A DNA stretch of 64,000 bases, taken from positions 2,852,001 to 2,916,000 of the forward strand of contig NZ_CP016286.1 of the NCBI RefSeq assembly GCF_001679785.1, in the 5' to 3' direction. The notes beneath the pieces are model-generated. The model was given only the letters and a program-made list of their open reading frames with translations, had not been told where the DNA came from and searched no databases. Numbering within the stretch: position 1 is the stretch's first letter; every line of letters begins with the position of its first letter. Shown piece after piece: positions 15,192-27,219 of the stretch. Made by a program: the position numbers and the translations under genes. This DNA comes from Rhizobium leguminosarum (GTDB lineage Bacteria > Pseudomonadota > Alphaproteobacteria > Rhizobiales > Rhizobiaceae).

Positions 15192-16268
15192 ATGACCGGC
15201 GCAACGGCCCCTCTCATCACCGTCGTCATACCGGCCTACAACGCCGAGAAGACGCTTGCCGAAACATTGCAAAGCGTCTCCAGCCAGTCCTATGACAAGC
15301 TCGAAATTCTTGTGGTCGACGACGGGTCGCGGGATAATACCTTCGATCTTGCGAGCGACTACAGCCTGACCGATCGCCGTGTCCGTGTTCTCCGCCAGGA
15401 GAATGGTGGGGTTGCGCGCGCGCGCAACCACGGCATCGAGGACGCACGCGGCCTTTATATAGCCCCCGTCGATGCCGATGATTTATGGCACCCTCGGAAA
15501 ATCGAGCTCCAGCTCGAGGCACTAGGGAAATTTCCGAACGGACGTGGGGTCGCCTACAATTGGTATGCGGCGATCGACGAAAACGGCATCATTTTCGGTC
15601 ATTCGCGGCCGGTCCTGCATCAGGGGACTATCTTCGAACCTCTGTTGCGGGAAAATTTCATCGGCAATGGCAGCACACCCTTGATGCCGCGGGCGGACAT
15701 TCTTCGCTGCGGCGGCTATGACGCTGGCCTGCGTGACAGCGGGGCCGAGGGATGTGAGGATCTGAAACTTTATCTGGCCTTGGCCGAGACGCTGCCCTTC
15801 GCACTGGTCCCCGATTTTCTGACTGGTTATCGCTTCACCAAGGGAAACATGTCCAGCAACGCCTATCGGATGCTGAAGTCCCACGCCTTGGTGATGGCGC
15901 CGTTCATCGCCCGCTATCCACATTTTGAGCGTGATATCCGGACGGCTGAATTCAACACCGCTTCCTGGTATTTCAAAAAGGCGTTTCTCGACGACGATTA
16001 TGCGCAGCTCAAAAAGCTGGCGCCGATGATGGTGAGCAAATACCCCTCACGCCTCGTCGTCCATGGCATGCAGCAGGGATGGCGGCTGGTAAAACGCCAC
16101 GGCATGCGGATAGCGAGGCGCGCCCTGGGCAAGCCTCCGGCCCGACCCAAAATCCGCTTCGCCGCGGTCATCCCGCAAGCCGGAACAGCTTTCCGCGATC
16201 GATACGCCGGTATGCCGGCCAGGGAAGCGCCCAGCCCCATCGCTCAGCGGATGGTCGACAATGAATAG
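15192..16268 (+). CDS. GT2 glycosyltransferase
   Basis: The 358-residue product opens with the GT-A fold: ITVVIPAYNAEKTLAETLQS, LEILVVDDGSRDNT, NGGVARARNHGIEDARG and APVDADDLWHP (metal site). The segment GAEGCEDLKLYLALAE is the ED motif that supplies the catalytic base. The C-terminal 100 residues are basic and probably face the membrane. It starts seven bases after the fusion gene and overlaps the ABC transporter by eight. It is clearly related to the GT2 at 18012, which shares GNGS and GGCEDFDFEL-like segments, so the two may be paralogues that act in succession. Confidence 0.85.
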   Translation: MTGATAPLITVVIPAYNAEKTLAETLQSVSSQSYDKLEILVVDDGSRDNTFDLASDYSLTDRRVRVLRQENGGVARARNHGIEDARGLYIAPVDADDLWHPRKIELQLEALGKFPNGRGVAYNWYAAIDENGIIFGHSRPVLHQGTIFEPLLRENFIGNGSTPLMPRADILRCGGYDAGLRDSGAEGCEDLKLYLALAETLPFALVPDFLTGYRFTKGNMSSNAYRMLKSHALVMAPFIARYPHFERDIRTAEFNTASWYFKKAFLDDDYAQLKKLAPMMVSKYPSRLVVHGMQQGWRLVKRHGMRIARRALGKPPARPKIRFAAVIPQAGTAFRDRYAGMPAREAPSPIAQRMVDNE

Positions 16269-18015
16269 GTTTCGAAAGCCGCCTTCCGCTATGCCCGCAA
16301 GAGCCTACAACCTGGTCGTTGCGTCTCGGTTTCGCGAGCTTCTGCAACTCGTACCGGCGCTGCGGCTCAAGATGACCGTGATGATCATCCTGGGAATTCT
16401 TACCGGCTTCTCGGAAATGGTCGGCATCACCTTTCTGGTCAGCCTCGTCTTCCTTCTCGGGCAGCAAGGTCCCGTTTCCGGCTCCGCCGTCGCCTGGCTT
16501 CCGGCGTTTTTCGGCGGCATCGACCTCAGTCTTTCGAAGCCTGTCCTGATCGGCATTCTCATCGGCTCCATCCTGTTCCGGATTTTTTTGGGATGCGCCA
16601 ATTCGCTCATTGCAAGTGCAGTGAACCACCGGATTAGCGACCGCATGCGAGACCGCCTCTACGCCAAGGTCTTGACCATGCCCTTCCAGCGCTTTCAGGA
16701 CTATGAGCGCAGCGACCTGATCAACGTCATCGCGACCGAATCCTATGCGGTGTCGTCGGCGCATGCCAGCCTGGTACGCCTGGGCGTGAATTTCGGTACG
16801 ATTGTGATTTTCGGCGTCGGCATGCTGGTCATGGCCTGGCCGATCGCCTTGCTCGCGCTCGCCTTCGGCTTCATCCATAATTTTACATTGGGTTTCTTTG
16901 CCGGTGCCTACCGTCGCCTCGGCTCCTCTGCCCTGGCTGCGGTGGAAGCCTTGACACAGTTGAGCTGGACAACGCTGCAGACATTGAAGGCCGTCAAAAG
17001 CTTCGGCCTCGAGAAGCGCCATCAGCAGCTCTTCGAAACGCTTTCCAACGACGTCGGCCAGACCTGGCGCCGGTCGGACTGGATGGGGGCGACGACCTCG
17101 CTTCTCAGCGAAATCCTGACCTTCGGGGTCATCCTGACGATCATTCTGTCCTCGGAATTCCTGCCGGTGGATTTCAAGGCGGCGCTCTCGGCCACCATCC
17201 TTCTTTACAGGCTTCAGCCGCATATCAAGGGATTTGATTCCCAGATTCTCAGCCTTTACGAGATGGAAGCGTCCCTGCAAAACGTACTGGCGCTGCTTTC
17301 AGAGAAGGATGACATCAAGCAGGCCGCGCAAGGGGAGAAGGTAAGCCGCCTGGCGGAAGCAATTGTCTTCCACAACGTCTCGTTCGCCTATGAGCGGGCG
17401 AACGCACCGGCGGTTCACGATCTCAGCTTCTCGATCAGGGCAGGCGAGACGACGGCTGTGACGGGGCCAAGCGGCTCCGGCAAAACCACAATCCTCAACA
17501 TGATTCTCGATCTCAACCCGCCGACCCAAGGCCGGATCACGGTCGACGGCAGGGATCTGACAACCATCGACCGTTCCAGCTGGCTGCAACTGCTCTCCGT
17601 GTCGGGCCAGGACGTTGAACTGATGGAGGGCACGGTCCTCGACAACATCCGGTTTCGCCGCGATATCTCGGAGCAGGATATCCGCTGGGCGGCCGATGTG
17701 GCCTGCGCAACGGAGTTCATCAACGATCTGCCGTACGGCTTCGATGAATGGCTGGGCGACGAGGCGATCCGGCTTTCGGGCGGACAAAGGCAACGCATAG
17801 GCCTGGCGCGCGCGCTCGCCGGCCGGCCTCAGATCCTGCTGTTGGACGAAGCGACGAGCGCGCTCGACGAAGATACCGAGATGCGGGTGTTTTCGGCGAT
17901 GAAAGAAGACGCCGGCAGAACGCTCATCGTCGTTAGCCATCGGCCCGCTGTCGCCAGGCTGATGAAGAATCGGATCGATCTCCGCCCCCCCGCTCCCACG
18001 TCGAAGCTCGGGTGA
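16261..18015 (+). CDS. ABC exporter, membrane and ATPase domains fused (PglK/MsbA-like)
   Basis: This 584-residue half-transporter has about six membrane helices in residues 30-300, then an ATPase domain: Walker A GPSGSGKTT near residue 401, signature LSGGQRQRIGLARAL near 503, Walker B ILLLDEATSALDE near 525, and the switch His in VVSHRP. The architecture matches lipid-linked oligosaccharide flippases (PglK) and MsbA. It would form a homodimer. It lies among glycosyltransferases with overlaps at both ends, so the likely cargo is the glycan this cluster makes rather than a peptide. The Q-loop is replaced by SVSGQDVELMEGT, still with Gln. Confidence 0.88.
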   Translation: MNRFRKPPSAMPARAYNLVVASRFRELLQLVPALRLKMTVMIILGILTGFSEMVGITFLVSLVFLLGQQGPVSGSAVAWLPAFFGGIDLSLSKPVLIGILIGSILFRIFLGCANSLIASAVNHRISDRMRDRLYAKVLTMPFQRFQDYERSDLINVIATESYAVSSAHASLVRLGVNFGTIVIFGVGMLVMAWPIALLALAFGFIHNFTLGFFAGAYRRLGSSALAAVEALTQLSWTTLQTLKAVKSFGLEKRHQQLFETLSNDVGQTWRRSDWMGATTSLLSEILTFGVILTIILSSEFLPVDFKAALSATILLYRLQPHIKGFDSQILSLYEMEASLQNVLALLSEKDDIKQAAQGEKVSRLAEAIVFHNVSFAYERANAPAVHDLSFSIRAGETTAVTGPSGSGKTTILNMILDLNPPTQGRITVDGRDLTTIDRSSWLQLLSVSGQDVELMEGTVLDNIRFRRDISEQDIRWAADVACATEFINDLPYGFDEWLGDEAIRLSGGQRQRIGLARALAGRPQILLLDEATSALDEDTEMRVFSAMKEDAGRTLIVVSHRPAVARLMKNRIDLRPPAPTSKLG

Positions 18016-21038: not shown

Positions 21039-21287
21039 CTAATGACTTCTCACACTCACTTGCGGAACCGGGGAGCTCAATTCGGCCAGTTCCCTGGTCA
21101 AGCCCTCCCCAACCTCCTGCTTCACGGCCTCGAGCGCAAGGTCGAGGCAATTCGTCGCGAACGGCAGTTTGACGTCCTGAGCGACCTGCCGCGCATAGGC
21201 GATCATCCGCGCCAACGCGACGAGCTCTTCCAGACCGTCTTCCGCCCCTTGGTCTGCATCTATCTTGACAACCGATGTCACGCCCAT
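21039..21287 (-). CDS. Small protein at the end of the YcaO/TfuA operon
   Basis: The favoured ATG at 21287 has GGAG nine bases upstream and gives 82 residues; an ATG at 21302 would add five. The protein is acidic and helical (GAEDGLEELVALARMIAYAR, LDLALEAVKQEVGEGLTREL) with one Cys. The size and the repeated A/E/L pattern resemble the hypothetical protein at 20435. It is on the same strand as TfuA, 103 bases downstream, and could be a second substrate, a binding partner or unrelated. Its leader contains a 15-base match to the 3' end of 16S rRNA, listed separately. Confidence 0.55.
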   Translation of the reverse strand: MGVTSVVKIDADQGAEDGLEELVALARMIAYARQVAQDVKLPFATNCLDLALEAVKQEVGEGLTRELAELSSPVPQVSVRSH

Positions 21288-21327
21288 GCCCCATTTCTCC
21301 AATGAATTGAAGAAATGATACGCGTGT

Positions 21328-21342
21328 GGAGGTGATCCAGCC
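21328..21342 (-). promoter_or_regulatory. 16S 3'-end-like (anti-Shine-Dalgarno) sequence in a leader
   Basis: Read on the minus strand this is GGCTGGATCACCTCC, identical over 15 bases to the 3' end of alphaproteobacterial 16S rRNA as I know it. It sits about 40-55 bases before the start of the small gene at 21287, whose ribosome site is GGAG. An anti-Shine-Dalgarno copy in a leader could pair with the ribosome site and hide it, or be a chance match. Confidence 0.35.
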
Positions 21343-21390
21343 CGTGAAAAAAGCGTGACACAACCCTCGGTGACTATTGCCGGTTTCAGT

Positions 21391-22098
21391 TCACAATGCA
21401 GGGCGCGTGGGGAATGAGGTGTCGTTCAGTTTCCAGGGCAGATCGGCAGTCGAGCGAATGTCGTGGACGTCCTGCACCACTTTCAATAATTCCAGGGCAT
21501 CGATGCGTTTTTGATCGACGGCGTTCGACAGAAGTGCCGCCAGCAGGCCCGCACGATCCGGCTCGGCCAGCCCAGCACATTGCTCGACGACCGCCCGCCA
21601 GGTTCGCTTCTTGAAGAATATCGCGCTTGCGGCTTCTTCGAGCCGTTGGCGCAACCGACTTTCCAGCAGCCCGCGATCCTCCATCGCATCGAGCGTTGCG
21701 CTGACATTGACGAGCGGTACCGTCAGCGGCTTGCTGCCGAGAGCGCTCGGCGCGTGCGTGAGCGCGACGGCGGCATCGTCGACCAGCCGGCCGGTGCGAT
21801 AGTCTTCGAAAATGCGCCCGATCCCGATCATGCCGAATGAATGGCATTCGGCAGCGCGCAACGCGCCCATGCTTGCCGCCCCGAGAACCGCGACGCCGAG
21901 CGACAGAGCATGGAGAATTTCCTTGTGCCAGACCGGTGCGGCATATTCGAAGCCGCCGTCGATCAGGCCGATGACATTGGCACCCTGCTCCACCGCCGCC
22001 AGGACATCGCCTTGCGTGGCAGGCGGCAAGACGCGTATCCCCTCACCGGCAAGCGATGCCGCATCGGGAAGACTGGGACCTGCGAAAATGAGCTTCAA
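21391..22098 (-). CDS. tfuA: TfuA-like protein (YcaO partner)
   Basis: The 235-residue product begins KLIFAGPSLPDA and carries the family core DGGFEYAAPVWHKEILHALS, then LGAASMGALRAAEC, GIGRIFEDYRTGRLVDDAAVA and LTHAP. TfuA proteins are named from the trifolitoxin locus of R. leguminosarum. Where characterised, TfuA assists YcaO enzymes in peptide backbone thioamide formation, by supplying sulfide. Its ATG overlaps the YcaO stop by four bases, indicating coupled translation and a stoichiometric partnership. The conserved Cys in RAAEC may be relevant to sulfur handling; this is my inference. Confidence 0.85.
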   Translation of the reverse strand: MKLIFAGPSLPDAASLAGEGIRVLPPATQGDVLAAVEQGANVIGLIDGGFEYAAPVWHKEILHALSLGVAVLGAASMGALRAAECHSFGMIGIGRIFEDYRTGRLVDDAAVALTHAPSALGSKPLTVPLVNVSATLDAMEDRGLLESRLRQRLEEAASAIFFKKRTWRAVVEQCAGLAEPDRAGLLAALLSNAVDQKRIDALELLKVVQDVHDIRSTADLPWKLNDTSFPTRPAL

Positions 22099-23288
22099 AA
22101 CCCTATTGCCCTGGCAAGCGCCCTCGTTCCAAACCGCCGGGCGCGCTCCCCCTCCGGATTTTCGAGCTCGGGAATGACAATCTTGACGACACTGAACGGA
22201 AGCGTGTCGTCGCTGAGACGCACGGCGATCACCGAAGCAATCCGCCTGTTTCTCAGCGCGTCGAGCACATGCTGCAGCAACTGCGGCAGATCCTGCTGGT
22301 GATACCCTGCCGCCTCGTCACGGCCGATGGCAGCGGCGGGCGGTGCGGCAACCGCATCGAAGGCCTGCCGCATCAGCGGCGGCAGCCATCTTGAGAACGT
22401 TGCGGGAGAAATATCGTCCCTGGCTCCGCTGATATAGGTCAGCCGGGATTGTACAGCTTCCGTCACCGCCCGAATGGCGGCGCGCACGGGAGACGGATGA
22501 GCGCCGGTGCCGCCGGTCACCTCGACGAGGCGAATGTCCCTATTGCCGTGAAAATCCCGGGGGCCCAGGAGGGAATCCCCAGGACCCAGCATGGCGGTGA
22601 AACAGGGAATCCCGATGTCGCTGGTGATATCGAAGAGCCTGAGCGCCAATCCCGAGGTTTCGATCTTGTCGATCAACCCGTCCAGGGCGCCGTCCTCAAA
22701 GCCGCAGGGATCGGTGCAGCCGGCATAACGATCCGCTTCCGCGCCCACCTGCCACAACACATGGGCGTCACGCTCGATACGCTCCAGGACGCCGTGAAAG
22801 ATCGCCTCCTCGACATTGTTTCCCGAGGCCAGGCCATCCGACGACATCCAGTATCGCGCGTCACGCGTGCGGTCGAGCACCACCGCTTCAAAGGGGATAT
22901 AGACCTCCTCGCCGTTGAGGATATTGACGCCGGCAACCCATTCCGTCTCCTCGTCCGGTCCGAGATCGGGTTTATGGACAGCGGTCAGGCAATTCAGCGC
23001 GTCGGTCTTGTGCCCCATTGCCTGCAGACGGGAAGAGGTGCCGTGGACGAGATCGACGGAGGGTTCGCCGGCGACAGCCCGTTCGAGGGCTTCCATGACA
23101 GTGGATACTTTGGCATCGAGATCGGTCAGGCCCTTTCCCTGGGCAATCACGATCGAGCGGGAATTCGGGGCGTATGCGCACCAGACGGGGATTCCGACAT
23201 CGTCCAGTCCGGTATGTCGCGCAACCCTGGTGATGCCGAACCTGGCCAAAAAAGGTTCGACGCGGGAAAGGGTTTCCCGCGGCGACAT
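22095..23288 (-). CDS. YcaO-family cyclodehydratase/thioamidase
   Basis: This 397-residue protein matches YcaO: GLDDVGIPVWCAYAPNS, the first ATP/Mg motif in GKGLTDLDAKVSTVMEALER, the second in EEAIFHGVLERIERDA, VEVTGGTGAHPSPVRAAIRA, and TEAVQSRLTYISGARDD. YcaO enzymes phosphorylate a backbone amide carbonyl, leading to azolines, amidines or thioamides. No Ocin-ThiF/E1 partner or flavin dehydrogenase is nearby, while TfuA is. That combination points to thioamidation rather than azole formation. It does not end in the PxPxP tail seen in azoline-forming members. A 70-residue peptide gene lies 42 bases upstream. Confidence 0.88.
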   Translation of the reverse strand: MSPRETLSRVEPFLARFGITRVARHTGLDDVGIPVWCAYAPNSRSIVIAQGKGLTDLDAKVSTVMEALERAVAGEPSVDLVHGTSSRLQAMGHKTDALNCLTAVHKPDLGPDEETEWVAGVNILNGEEVYIPFEAVVLDRTRDARYWMSSDGLASGNNVEEAIFHGVLERIERDAHVLWQVGAEADRYAGCTDPCGFEDGALDGLIDKIETSGLALRLFDITSDIGIPCFTAMLGPGDSLLGPRDFHGNRDIRLVEVTGGTGAHPSPVRAAIRAVTEAVQSRLTYISGARDDISPATFSRWLPPLMRQAFDAVAAPPAAAIGRDEAAGYHQQDLPQLLQHVLDALRNRRIASVIAVRLSDDTLPFSVVKIVIPELENPEGERARRFGTRALARAIGF

Positions 23289-23330
23289 GATCCTGTCGGA
23301 ATATATGGACTGGTGCGTCAGAATGCCGGC

Positions 23331-23543
23331 TCAGCCGTCGAAGTGACCGGAAAGGGCAACCTGCGCCGTCGAAACGGCGACGGCGAAATCGACGTCCTTC
23401 ACCAACGTGCCGCCGAGTTTGCGCAAGTCGTTCGCGTTCGCCAAGTCTCCCGTCGGATTGAGAGGCTTGACCGTGCCCGCGTTGAGATCGGCAAGCCAGA
23501 GACCTGCTTCGCCGGGTATTCCTATAATGACTGCTGTTGCCAT
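23331..23543 (-). CDS. 70-residue candidate substrate peptide of YcaO/TfuA
   Basis: An ATG at 23543 preceded by TGAGGGGC opens 70 codons between the SARP regulator (20 bases upstream) and YcaO (42 bases downstream), all on one strand. It begins MATAVIIGIPGEAGLWLADL, has a central charged part (DLANANDLRKLGG) and ends in a hydrophobic, small-residue stretch followed by LSGHFDG. There is no Cys and no signal peptide. Its size and position are those of a RiPP precursor; the C-terminal AVAVSTAQVALSG would be the obvious core. It could instead be a small globular protein that YcaO/TfuA modify at one bond. No homologue is known to me. Confidence 0.6.
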   Translation of the reverse strand: MATAVIIGIPGEAGLWLADLNAGTVKPLNPTGDLANANDLRKLGGTLVKDVDFAVAVSTAQVALSGHFDG

Positions 23544-23563
23544 GTAATGCCCCTCAGCTCTTG

Positions 23564-25411
23564 TTAAAAACCAGCCCTCAACAGGCCCTCCCGATAAAGC
23601 TCTTTTTGCCACTGTTCCTTGATGGGAACAATGGCGAGCCACTTCTCGACGTCGAACACCGGGTTGATGCTTTCGGCGCGCTGCCGATGGAATAGCGCCC
23701 GTTTTCGATCGCCGATCATTGCGCAACTGGCCGCCGCGAGGCGGTGAGCCGGCGCTTTGTCTTTCATCGCCTCGACATAGGCGATGGCCTCCTCGTACTG
23801 TTCCAGGAAGAAGCTCGCTCCCGCAGCACACCAGAGATAGGCATCAGGCGCGATCGGATTGAGCGAAATCGCTCTTCTGATCTTGGCGAGCGCGTCGCCG
23901 GGGCGGGATGCATGCACGAGCGTGTCGGCATGGCTGTAGATGACATCGGCAAAATGCGGGCTGAGTTGTTCGGCCAGATCAAGTGCGGCGACACTGGCAT
24001 CGACATCGCCGAGATAGAGTTTGGTGACACCAAGCTCGCGATGGCCCGCCGCCGATGCCGGATCCCGCTCGATGGCCCGAAGCGCGTTCTGCTCCGCCAG
24101 ATGCAGCAGCTCATTGTTTCCCTGCGCCGTCACGAGCCACTCGCTGGTGAAGGTCCTCGCCAGCCCGGTAAATGACGGAGAGAAATCCGCCTTATGCGAC
24201 AGCGACTGCTTGAAAGCTTTTCGGGCCCGGCGGATATGCGGCAATGTCAATTTGCTCATCAGGCTCGAGCCGACCAGATAGGCGTGATAGGCCTCAGGAT
24301 TGGCTTCGAAGCGTAAGCGCTCTTCCTCGTTTTCAGCCAGCTCGCGGGCGACAGACATGGTCAACTGCTGCGCAATCAGCCGTCTCTGACGCGGCAATAT
24401 ATCGGGCGTCATCGTAAAGCGATTGGCCCAGATGATCTCGTCCGTGGGAAAATAAACCAGCTGGGCAAACAATCCCTCTTCGGAAAGCCGTGTATCCAGA
24501 AGATAGGCGATCGAGTGACGGGCGACCACGGCAGCCTTCTCGGAGTCGCGACGGATCTGGCCGGCCGTATGGGGCGCTACGATGGAAATGTTTCTGAGCG
24601 CGCAGAGTTCGATCGTGACGTCCTCGATCAGGGCGTTGGCAAGCGCAAGCCCGGCATCGGCATGTTTCGATGTCGGGGGAAGCAGCACCAGCCGAGGTAG
24701 GATCAGCGGCGCCTGCGATACGCGTTCGATGTCGGCAGTTGTCTCACCGCCGACCTCGAAACGCTTCACCTGCACCCTGGCATGGCCGTCGCCGTTCGGC
24801 AATCTCTCGCTGAGGGACGAACCGCCGGATAGCCGGTGCAGCAAGGCTCTCACCTGCTCGTCATTCGGATCCCGTTCGAGGATCTGCAGGGCGGCGCCGG
24901 AAATGGAGCGCGCAGCGCCGGGCTTTTGCGCATCCGGCAACGCATCCAGCAATGCCTGCCGCAAATGCAGCGCCTGAGCGTCCCGTTGCGCCCTGATCCA
25001 GGCGTCTATCAGCTTTGTCGCTGGTTTGATATTTCCGATGAACCCACGCTGGGTCAGTTCGGCGATCGCGTTCAGCCGCTCCAGCGGCGAACCGCCGGCG
25101 CGAAAAATATCGAGATCGCTGGAAACCGCCTGCGTGTTGAGGCGAACCGTGGTGGCGGTGAAATCGAAGGGCATTTCGGCGCGTCCGCCGTCTGTCTCGC
25201 GGATGCGGGAAAGCAGTTTGCGCAGATTGAGCCGCGCCAGCTCGGGTTCGACGTCATTCCATAGAAACTGCGCCAATTCATAACGGCTGAGTTCATGGCT
25301 CGCGCCGGCATAGAGATGGGCCATCATCAACAGGCCCTTGATCGGATAGCGAACCGGGTCGCCGTTCGTCTCGATCAACCGCAGATCGCCGAATGTCTGC
25401 AGGTGGAGCAC
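23564..25411 (-). CDS. SARP/BTAD-type regulator with TPR repeats
   Basis: The 615-residue product starts MLHLQTFGDLRL, the opening of an OmpR-like winged helix of the SARP/BTAD kind, followed by ELSRYELAQFLWNDVEPELA, LRKLLSRIRE and the BTAD helices to about residue 200. Residues about 235-360 resemble the TolB-like segment found in adenylate-cyclase-associated regulators (PRLVLLPPTSKHADAGLALA, ALIEDVTIELCALRNISIVA). TPR repeats fill about 400-570 (AIERDPASAAGHRELGVTKL, SLNPIAPDAYLW). It probably activates transcription at the operon promoter. It starts nine bases after the XRE gene, so the pair is co-transcribed. Confidence 0.75.
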   Translation of the reverse strand: MLHLQTFGDLRLIETNGDPVRYPIKGLLMMAHLYAGASHELSRYELAQFLWNDVEPELARLNLRKLLSRIRETDGGRAEMPFDFTATTVRLNTQAVSSDLDIFRAGGSPLERLNAIAELTQRGFIGNIKPATKLIDAWIRAQRDAQALHLRQALLDALPDAQKPGAARSISGAALQILERDPNDEQVRALLHRLSGGSSLSERLPNGDGHARVQVKRFEVGGETTADIERVSQAPLILPRLVLLPPTSKHADAGLALANALIEDVTIELCALRNISIVAPHTAGQIRRDSEKAAVVARHSIAYLLDTRLSEEGLFAQLVYFPTDEIIWANRFTMTPDILPRQRRLIAQQLTMSVARELAENEEERLRFEANPEAYHAYLVGSSLMSKLTLPHIRRARKAFKQSLSHKADFSPSFTGLARTFTSEWLVTAQGNNELLHLAEQNALRAIERDPASAAGHRELGVTKLYLGDVDASVAALDLAEQLSPHFADVIYSHADTLVHASRPGDALAKIRRAISLNPIAPDAYLWCAAGASFFLEQYEEAIAYVEAMKDKAPAHRLAAASCAMIGDRKRALFHRQRAESINPVFDVEKWLAIVPIKEQWQKELYREGLLRAGF

Positions 25412-25420
25412 GATCCGTCC

Positions 25421-25846
25421 TCAGCTGTTCACAACCGAATCCTGCAGCTCACTGTCGCTGTCAGGCAATCCCGCGACTGCCAGGCTTTTGGCCAACGCCA
25501 CCAGCTTTTGCCTGATATTCGGATCCTCGATGGCGATGAATGCCTTGTTGAGCGCCAGCCCCTCCTTCGAGGACAAAAAGCTGTTCAATTCATTCGTCGC
25601 GCCGTCGATCGGCCCGGCGCCGCCGTTCTCGAAGAAAAAGCCGACGGGCACGCGAAGAATCTCGGATATGCGCTGAAGACGGCTGGCGCCTATTCTATTC
25701 GTTCCCTTTTCGTATTTCTGGATCTGCTGGAAGGTAATGCCCAGAAGTTCGGCCAAGCCGTTCTGGGTCATCCCGAGCGTCTTTCGCCGAACGCGCACGC
25801 GGTTGCCAACATAGACGTCAATCGAATTCGGCGATTTAGCCTTCAT
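25421..25846 (-). CDS. XRE-family regulator, PraR-like
   Basis: A 141-residue protein with an HTH_3 domain in residues about 12-68: RVRVRRKTLGMTQNGLAELL, then GITFQQIQKYEKGTNRIGAS and RLQRISEILRVPVGFFFE. This is the pattern of the alphaproteobacterial PhrR/PraR group, some of which control surface polysaccharide and quorum-sensing genes. The C-terminal half (ALNKAFIAIEDPNIRQKLVA) is an effector or dimer region. It is the first gene of the minus-strand operon and probably regulates its own promoter in the divergent gap at 25847-26328. Confidence 0.8.
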   Translation of the reverse strand: MKAKSPNSIDVYVGNRVRVRRKTLGMTQNGLAELLGITFQQIQKYEKGTNRIGASRLQRISEILRVPVGFFFENGGAGPIDGATNELNSFLSSKEGLALNKAFIAIEDPNIRQKLVALAKSLAVAGLPDSDSELQDSVVNS

Positions 25847-26328
25847 GTGAATAAGTCTCCCGCTTTATCAGCACGCCCGGCTGTATAATGGAGAGTTTAA
25901 GCAAGAATGCAACTAAAAGTAAATATTTCGTAAGGATTTTTTTCAGCAGCGCACACAGTAAAAACAACCTGTGGATTATCGCAGCAGCACCATTTGGCGC
26001 GGGTGCACCTGCGCGCTCTATCGCGCACTTCGCAGCGGACGAATGCTATCCAAAATCACTGCCGCGAGAGGTTTTTGCGCAACGGCGATCATCGACTTGG
26101 CGAAAGCGGGAATTCTTCCGACATACTCAAAAACGAACATTGTCGAAGCCGGCATCCAGCAGCAGCGTGCTCAGCGTGTTTTTCGACCAGAACTTGGTAT
26201 GCCCAATGACGAGGCACAAAGGTGCCCAATTGCCGACAAGAAGCCAAAGATATTTAACGGATAAATGTATACTGCTGGATTTAGACAGCCCGATCGAAAC
26301 ACCTTCTCGCGCGCCGGAGAAGACAAGC
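25847..26328. promoter_or_regulatory. Divergent intergenic region
   Basis: This 480-base gap separates the XRE-led operon from the plus-strand membrane protein and should hold both promoters. The frame of the plus-strand gene happens to stay open back to 25888, but that part has non-coding-like composition (basic, low complexity). I found no clear operator palindrome by eye. Confidence 0.4.
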
Positions 26329-27219
26329 TTGCCCGATAATTCGTCGTCCGCATATGCAAAACAGCCGGTGGGGAAACCGCGGGTTCCCGTGGTCTTCTGG
26401 TTGCTGCTGACGATTTCCCTCTCGCTGGTCATGGGAACGGTCCTGCTTTCCAACAACATGAAACACTTAAAGACGGTTAGCCACTATTTTGGCTTCGATC
26501 TCTTTCCCCCGGAGGTCAGACCGCCTCCCCCCAAAGCCCTTCCCCGCCCCACACCACCGGCCACCTTCATGCTTCCATTGCATGTCATCGAACCGCCGAT
26601 GGCACAGACCGCGTCGACTTTCCTGCGAACATGGCGGATATCCGGCACCGCAATGTGTGCGGCGCTGCGCAATGCCGGCATCGAAACCAGCGACTGGGCG
26701 GCGGCGAGTTTCAACGCCGATACATTTGAATGCTTTTTCGAGCAGAGCGGCAAGCGGGAGAAGGATCAGCTCCCGAGCTCCATCTTCGTCATCGTTCGCG
26801 GCGACGCCGCCGGCACGATCAACAATATGCGCGTGAAAATCATCAATCCCGAGACCGATGAAAATGGCCAGCTCGATCCCGCCATTCTGCGAATTTTCGA
26901 AATCATGCTGCGGCAACCGCAATGGCTCGATTTTCACGAGACCCTGAACGCGATCAAGAATCTGAAGGACATCAAGGAAGACGGCTTCGGAGCCAGTATC
27001 GGCTTCACCCGCGAGGTGCTCAATCCCGGGAATTACAACTTCACGCTCTCGCTGGATGCAACTTCAGGACCTCAGAAAAGTACAAGAAATTATTTTTCCG
27101 GCAGAAGATGGCTGCCGTTGCCGGACCCCGCAGTCGAGATCGACAGCGCGCAACCGGAATCAGTCTCCAAGCCCCCCAATACCGAAGCGCCGGCTGAAGG
27201 TCAGGAACATCGGCATTAG
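26329..27219 (+). CDS. Single-span membrane protein of unknown function (DUF6030-like)
   Basis: I choose the TTG at 26329, with GGAGA eight bases upstream, giving 296 residues; an ATG at 26437 and one at 26206 are alternatives. The order is a short cytoplasmic tail, one membrane helix (VFWLLLTISLSLVMGTVLL), a Pro-rich linker (PPPPKALPRPTPP) and a soluble domain of about 190 residues with MCAALRNAGIETSDW and FECFFEQSG. It resembles the DUF6030 proteins of Rhizobium, whose role is unknown. Its location next to the Pss cluster suggests a cell-envelope task, which is inference. Confidence 0.55.
   Translation: MPDNSSSAYAKQPVGKPRVPVVFWLLLTISLSLVMGTVLLSNNMKHLKTVSHYFGFDLFPPEVRPPPPKALPRPTPPATFMLPLHVIEPPMAQTASTFLRTWRISGTAMCAALRNAGIETSDWAAASFNADTFECFFEQSGKREKDQLPSSIFVIVRGDAAGTINNMRVKIINPETDENGQLDPAILRIFEIMLRQPQWLDFHETLNAIKNLKDIKEDGFGASIGFTREVLNPGNYNFTLSLDATSGPQKSTRNYFSGRRWLPLPDPAVEIDSAQPESVSKPPNTEAPAEGQEHRH

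Follow-up and report, generated by a model that had tools for sequence, protein, structure and literature searches.

We describe a gene unit of Rhizobium leguminosarum that most likely encodes a member of a family of thioamidated precursors of ribosomally synthesized and post-translationally modified peptides (RiPPs), together with the family's own tetratricopeptide repeat (TPR) regulator, possibly its receptor. The DNA analyzed is a stretch of 64,000 nucleotides (contig NZ_CP016286.1, positions 2,852,001 to 2,916,000; hereafter, the window), and the unit lies on its minus strand between positions 21039 and 25846. Its genes follow one another in the order XRE, SARP-like regulator, peptide, YcaO, TfuA and small protein. 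The six coordinates given in a first-pass annotation of this DNA, as well as the gaps of 9, 20, 42, -4 and 103 bases between the genes, proved exact.

A conserved peptide beside YcaO and TfuA

The peptide gene (23331..23543, minus strand) starts with ATG behind a GAGG-type ribosome site and codes for the 70-aa precursor peptide MATAVIIGIPGEAGLWLADLNAGTVKPLNPTGDLANANDLRKLGGTLVKDVDFAVAVSTAQVALSGHFDG. It is followed on the same strand by a gene for YcaO, a predicted thioamide-forming enzyme of 397 aa (22095..23288; PF02624, 215.5 bits, above cut-off), and by a gene for TfuA (21391..22098; 235 aa; PF07812, 143.6 bits, above cut-off) that overlaps the YcaO gene by four bases. The nearest solved structures are 6pe3, the methanogen protein MJ1094, for YcaO (E 3e-27) and 6xp8 for TfuA (E 1e-31). 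The ATP-site motifs of YcaO (MEALER at residue 65 and SDGLASGN...LERIERD at 150) are intact and are also present in 46 of 47 relatives. Neither the peptide nor the 82-aa small protein at the end of the unit matches a Pfam or NCBIfam family at E values up to 1.

The peptide was sought in 41 genomes, of which 25 belong to the genus of the window and 16 do not. It occurs in 24 of the former and in none of the latter. With a profile built from 19 members, an order-wide search of 297 genomes in 122 genera located it in 21 genomes and 11 genera. A second profile, run against 289 genomes drawn from the class, matched only the genome of the window, and the peptide therefore appears restricted to the order. 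When named genomes were scanned with a pattern, 117 relatives were recovered, the best 80 of which are referred to below as the named loci (individual loci carry numbers with L, and genomes carry numbers with G). The nearest is that of R. sophorae (91%). Among 45 proteins, the named relatives of the peptide are labeled "hypothetical" or "uncharacterized" and come from Rhizobium, except for one from Sinorhizobium. Ratios of nonsynonymous to synonymous substitution of 0.07 to 0.34, in 10 pairs among five orthologues, amount to purifying selection on a frame that reads MA.VVIGI.GE.GLW.ADL.AGTV.PL ... LR..G ... KGV(D/N).AVAV.SA..A.SGH.DG.

In the first-pass annotation, the 70-aa gene was taken to be the substrate of YcaO and TfuA, a proposal made dependent on conservation of this frame beside the two enzymes. 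The occurrences in 24 of 25 genus genomes and 21 of 297 order genomes support it: the gene is conserved beside both enzymes, or in the same genome as both, across the order, and is a likely YcaO/TfuA substrate. Peptide, TfuA and YcaO are jointly present or jointly absent in all 25 genus genomes, G004 being the only one that lacks all three. Among the order genomes, TfuA was found in 44, namely, in all 21 that have the peptide versus 23 of the 276 that do not (Fisher p 2.5e-20, a value that is uncorrected for kinship and partly due to linkage). At 18 of the 23 places located with the peptide profile, SARP, peptide and YcaO stand on one strand; the remaining five are a contig end, a weak match and three copies from Rhizobium that are unlinked or decayed. 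YcaO follows the peptide in 54 named loci and TfuA does so in 43, and TfuA is not behind YcaO in 11 of those 54.

The genome of the window (G000) also carries related genes elsewhere. A second intact SARP-peptide pair, whose tail reads SGHYDG, lies at L031 (C1:1291000-1304000), with two frame-shifted YcaO fragments upstream on the opposite strand, and a third, N-terminally incomplete copy of the peptide is found at C1:4540794. A second type of YcaO-TfuA pair, approximately 37% identical, resides behind its own SARP (approximately 30%) at L071 (G000:C4:441000-454000) and at L073 in G009. Between SARP and YcaO-TfuA, these two loci share a different conserved frame of 47 aa, MKT...RFSAAAKAAMKQDEL...ANALENLTHALKFR, with an XRE gene nearby, and this frame is another precursor candidate.

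Peptide structure, tail repeats and the likely core

The N-terminal 44 residues of the peptide are well conserved and are modeled as a small strand-helix unit (strands at residues 4-8, 15-19 and 24-28, helix at 33-42), whereas the tail is disordered. The mean predicted local distance difference test (pLDDT) score is 68 overall and 48 over the last ten residues. This model, of moderate confidence, fits a leader with a free core. We also considered whether the leader might be an RRE (PqqD-like) domain. RRE chains (5v1u and 6jx3) rank high in Foldseek, but with E values of 1.2 or more, and no sequence profile agrees; we retain this assignment only as a tentative lead. A precursor with a remnant RRE as its leader (residues 4-42) would be unusual, and no fold match is significant (E 1.2).

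The core had previously been placed near AVAVSTAQVALSG, which stops too early. The tail repeats and the conserved end of the peptide place it at approximately residues 63-70 (A-x-SGHFDG), and the repeat units of L047, L055, L059, L060, L084-L086, L088, L159 and L172 start behind the earlier segment or at its very end. The DVAV part is repeated as well only in L045 and L046. Because the C-terminus is tandemly repeated in relatives, the extreme tail SGHFDG (residues 65-70; 23334..23351, minus strand) is the likely core of the window peptide.

The usual Rhizobium-type tail contains one copy of A-x-SGH(F/Y/V/L)(D/E)G. Gly66 is invariant in all 50 aligned Rhizobium-type sequences, and His67 is present in 36 of them. 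Tails vary little within Rhizobium, with VALSGHVDG or AxxSGHxDG in most named loci. Repeated tails occur in 6 of 31 Rhizobium-type peptides, in 2 of the 80 named loci, and in 12 of 15 peptides from other families of the order. The tail of L047 has six units (SAGRMDD..SNRMDE..AGRMDE..GGRMDE..SGRMDE..SGRMDN), L055 has three (SAGKFDD, ASGKFEG and ASGKFDN), L059 has four and L060 three, and L045 and L046 are more complex. L159 likewise has three units (AAGLHEV..NGLHEV..SGLHEG). Four copies each of FSGKLE, GGFLE and GGFFE are found in L172, L084 and L085, respectively, and two of FSGQFD in L088. L086 carries six copies of GLFERSE plus a degenerate seventh, L099 carries five of AASHYYYPS(R/K), and L116 carries eight resembling AASHHYFPNR. 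The distant members L092, L093 and L095 have no tail repeat. By analogy, these tails resemble a multi-core precursor such as those of the thiovarsolin VarA family, whose members range from no repeat to five tandem cores in the part of the published account used here (PMC6511847). A metal-binding product, with a thioamide beside His67, was rejected as a general explanation because the tails of L047, L055, L059, L084-L086 and L088 lack His67.

Regulators, a putative operator and apparently shared enzymes

The SARP-like regulator (23564..25411, minus strand; 615 aa, GTG start) is the steadiest partner of the peptide, not YcaO. In all 80 named loci, it lies directly upstream of the peptide on the same strand, at a distance of 13-43 nt counted from the last aligned regulator codon to the peptide start with the stop codon included. 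Its length is 596-652 aa in 79 relatives. The first-pass label of SARP/BTAD-TPR should be taken more loosely: only TPR models match the window protein, all below cut-off, and neither Trans_reg_C nor BTAD does. Among 43 members of the regulator family, any one TPR model matches at most 35, Trans_reg_C matches three and BTAD matches two. An AlphaFold2 model of the regulator (pLDDT 85.9) has a predicted winged-helix region (residues 1-100), a helical region (109-194), a disordered segment (197-234), a mixed region (240-332) and a TPR region (approximately 339-612), and a fold search mainly of residues 290-615 returned TPR folds.

The enzymes are not so closely tied to the peptide. Nine of the 24 genus genomes that have the peptide (G005, G006, G007, G008, G015, G016, G017, G022 and G023) encode YcaO only at a distance from it. 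Four of these nine (L061-L064) have the order XRE, SARP remnant of at most 62 residues, YcaO, TfuA and small gene; these loci no longer have a complete SARP or a peptide of their own, and an unlinked SARP-peptide pair remains in the same genomes. In G015 and G022, YcaO stands without TfuA (L065 and L066), and TfuA is found beside the unlinked SARP-peptide pair (L034 and L033, respectively). Both of these genomes also have another YcaO-TfuA pair, which is more distant. The YcaO match of G022 contains a stop codon.

Similar arrangements recur among the named loci, 26 of which have no YcaO behind the peptide: in 15, both enzymes are missing from the stretch, nine have only TfuA, upstream on the other strand, and two have both there. 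All 24 of these genomes that were searched encode YcaO elsewhere (46-96% identical), the remaining two having a divergent YcaO in the same stretch; by coordinates, six were already in the genus set. Of the 11 named genomes whose peptide-YcaO locus is without TfuA, 10 were searched, and all 10 encode TfuA at another site; the eleventh such sequence is a 3.6-kb contig. Of eight distant TfuA loci that were opened, six have XRE-TfuA, one has TfuA beside a second SARP-peptide pair, and one has TfuA alone. Since YcaO and TfuA are present elsewhere in genomes with an unlinked peptide, they seem to form a shared workshop for peptides whose genes lie at other sites.

The first gene of the unit (25421..25846, minus strand) encodes an XRE-type DNA-binding protein of 141 aa (HTH_3, 49.6 bits), and the last (21039..21287, minus strand) encodes the small conserved protein, 82 aa from its ATG. 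The XRE gene precedes the unit in 49 named loci, and the small gene follows it in 33. Units of XRE, SARP and small gene also occur without peptide, YcaO or TfuA (L210, L211, L216, L217, L220 and L221). This combination is thus a regulatory module in its own right, and we therefore assign the small gene to the XRE-SARP pair.

Direct repeats with an 11-nt period are the kind of site bound by SARPs. Such a repeat, GTCACGC-N5-TCACG, lies upstream of the small gene (21343..21359, minus strand) and is exact in 32 of the 33 named loci that have this gene, L139 being without it. A single site would be unremarkable in the window by itself, where 0.44 would be expected with one mismatch allowed. In 25 genomes, the pattern with one extra T in front has 21 exact sites in nine genomes and none when read backward. 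By position, twelve sites lie before a small gene, eight before a frame of 62-124 aa ending like ERSPFLLQTVI, and one elsewhere. On this pattern of occurrence, the repeat is a probable operator of the XRE-SARP pair. Because it sits upstream of the small genes, the small gene is probably not biosynthetic but instead serves the pair as an output or partner. The sites before the second conserved kind of small protein are L222 (G000:C1:273257), L223 (G000:C2:646878) and L224-L229, and three of these proteins match KTSC below cut-off. The XRE-SARP pair may thus have further targets among such frames.

The absence of a nearby exporter, protease or immunity gene was remarked on in the first-pass annotation. 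No exporter or immunity gene recurs around 24 loci, where no family outside the unit is found in more than seven (families in two to five loci were not all identified). The most recurrent outside family, at 7 of the 24 loci, consists of mixed ABC transporter genes at differing places. A link between the unit and the ABC transporter gene at 16261-18015 was rejected, given that flanking genes differ between lineages. The divergent neighbor at 25888-27219 (plus strand) encodes a 443-aa DUF6030 protein (194 bits) and adjoins the unit only in close relatives.

Known systems, proposed function and alternatives

Trifolitoxin of R. leguminosarum bv. trifolii is a rhizobial RiPP whose production requires tfuA; its precursor and cluster differ from those described here. 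The named families and solved structures nearest to the window enzymes are those of the YcaO/TfuA pair that thioamidates a glycine of McrA in methanogens (models TIGR03266 and NF033432; structures 6pe3 and 6xp8). Unlike in that system, the window enzymes are partnered with a small linked peptide, and their scores fall below the curated cut-offs. As far as its available description goes, the thiovarsolin pathway of Streptomyces varsoviensis (varA, varY, varT and varO) is similar in combining YcaO and TfuA with a small precursor that has a conserved leader, with no protease in the cluster (PMC6511847). However, its precursor belongs to another family, and its core is APR rather than SGHxDG and variants. 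Moreover, the window unit has no heme oxygenase-like gene, carries SARP-TPR and XRE regulators, and belongs to a kind whose enzymes are often unlinked.

Malit et al. (2021) catalogued TfuA-related clusters of Rhizobium and Agrobacterium and counted more than 500 YcaO-TfuA clusters from Rhizobium (PMC8120280). Those Rhizobium clusters very probably encode the same enzymes as the window. The main text of that report, in the portions covered, names no such precursor, SARP or repeats, its precursor networks being in supplements, and describes the TfuA-YcaO thioamidated RiPPs then known as all coming from Actinobacteria. A literature search of titles and abstract starts returned no paper on this peptide family. 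Within the literature covered, the precursor family and its regulator-peptide cassette are therefore an undescribed variant of the YcaO-TfuA RiPP kind.

That the peptide is a substrate of YcaO-TfuA we regard as highly probable. By analogy with characterized members of the enzyme families, formation of a thioamide on its tail is also probable, if with somewhat less assurance. From what is known of the families, YcaO would activate a backbone amide with ATP, and TfuA would help to deliver sulfide, which TfuA and a ThiS-type carrier pass on according to the part of the account used here (PMC13063428). The last residues, SGHFDG, would become backbone-thioamidated, and the invariant Gly66 would be the leading candidate site, given that a glycine of McrA is modified by the nearest named YcaO/TfuA families. 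The further steps are weaker suggestions: general peptidases would release the tail, in line with a proposal made for thiovarsolin, and the released tail would bind the TPR domain of the regulator encoded 20 bases upstream and alter its activity. The complete chain, in which a thioamidated tail is read by its own SARP-like regulator, is offered tentatively, at somewhat less than even chances.

A similar layout is known from RRNPP systems (Rap-Phr, NprR-NprX and PlcR-PapR), in which a TPR regulator gene is followed by a small gene with a presumed C-terminal signal, and propeptides can have repeats. According to the part of the published criteria drawn on, the propeptide has 10-100 aa and lies within -60 to 400 bp of the TPR receptor gene, and the receptor has 250-500 aa (PMC10075063). 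The window peptide, with 70 aa and 20 bases behind the TPR protein, falls within these limits; the regulator, with 615 aa, does not. Also unlike RRNPP systems as described there, the unit encodes a SARP-type instead of an HTH receptor, has no visible secretion signal, includes a pair of modifying enzymes, and belongs to a Gram-negative host. We do not class it as an RRNPP system, because of the receptor length and because secretion is unproven. An extended form of our proposal is that these genes are a Gram-negative RiPP counterpart of RRNPP, in which SARP-TPR receptor and propeptide move together as one cassette, a shared YcaO-TfuA pair thioamidates the C-terminal hexapeptide of every such propeptide in the cell, each product switches its own receptor, and the signal code includes the backbone thioamide. 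We consider this extension speculative and rather unlikely.

Covariation gives weak support to a regulator that reads the tail. The core shows stronger covariation with the central TPR segment (residues 430-529) than with five other regulator segments of approximately 100 residues (partial r 0.29; 0 of 300 permutations, which ignore shared ancestry), and random 100-column samples of the TPR region give partial r values of 0.06-0.57. Several observations weigh against the overall proposal. Where YcaO is in cis (28 loci), covariation of the core is stronger with YcaO (partial r 0.32) than with the TPR (0.19). SARPs without the peptide are common, G004 having two, and in L045 and L046 peptide, YcaO and TfuA stand together with no SARP found, so that an invariable bond between SARP and peptide was rejected. 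The thioamide in the tail is a prediction by analogy, and the window YcaO and TfuA score below cut-off with the McrA-glycine thioamidation models TIGR03266 (195.1 of 365 bits) and NF033432 (180.2 of 235.2 bits). The tail motif of the divergent L093, L095, L096 and L099 does not keep the Gly. Finally, no basic-hydrophobic signal was seen on reading the leader sequence, leaving export unexplained.

The strongest alternative, which we judge only slightly less plausible than the complete chain, also posits a thioamidated RiPP precursor, with an ordinary secreted metabolite, such as a competition factor, as its product and the SARP as no more than a co-transcribed activator. SARPs classically activate metabolite clusters, and the repeated, variable cores would fit chemical diversification. 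Also, a dedicated protease is equally lacking for thiovarsolin in the portion of its description used here (PMC6511847). However, the tail varies little within Rhizobium, the 24 loci share no recurrent exporter or immunity gene, and the regulator adjoins the peptide even at loci without the enzymes.

A second alternative treats the peptide as a small working protein, for example, a SARP adaptor or regulator, whose tail is modified in place and never released, like uL16 or McrA. According to published accounts, YcaO enzymes do modify whole proteins in other systems, and the conserved N-terminal 44 residues with their strand-helix model would suit such a role. Nevertheless, up to eight tandem tails in one protein (L099 and L116) are what would be expected of excised cores. 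We consider this explanation improbable. Less probable still is that YcaO makes an azoline or other product, or acts on another substrate, with the peptide only a co-transcribed partner of the SARP: YcaO chemistry is diverse and TfuA is missing after YcaO in some peptide-YcaO loci, but TfuA was elsewhere in every such genome tested, the SagD-type azoline model TIGR03604 scores far below cut-off (91.9 of 219.25 bits), the tail holds one Ser and no Cys, and peptide and YcaO are kept together per genome even when unlinked.

Our favored proposal of a thioamidated precursor with its own TPR regulator provides a concrete substrate family for the rhizobial YcaO-TfuA enzymes, with a candidate core and natural multi-core homologues. 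It also predicts a single enzyme pair acting on several unlinked precursors. If the product is indeed read by the TPR regulator, then plant-associated Gram-negative bacteria would have a backbone-modified peptide signal.

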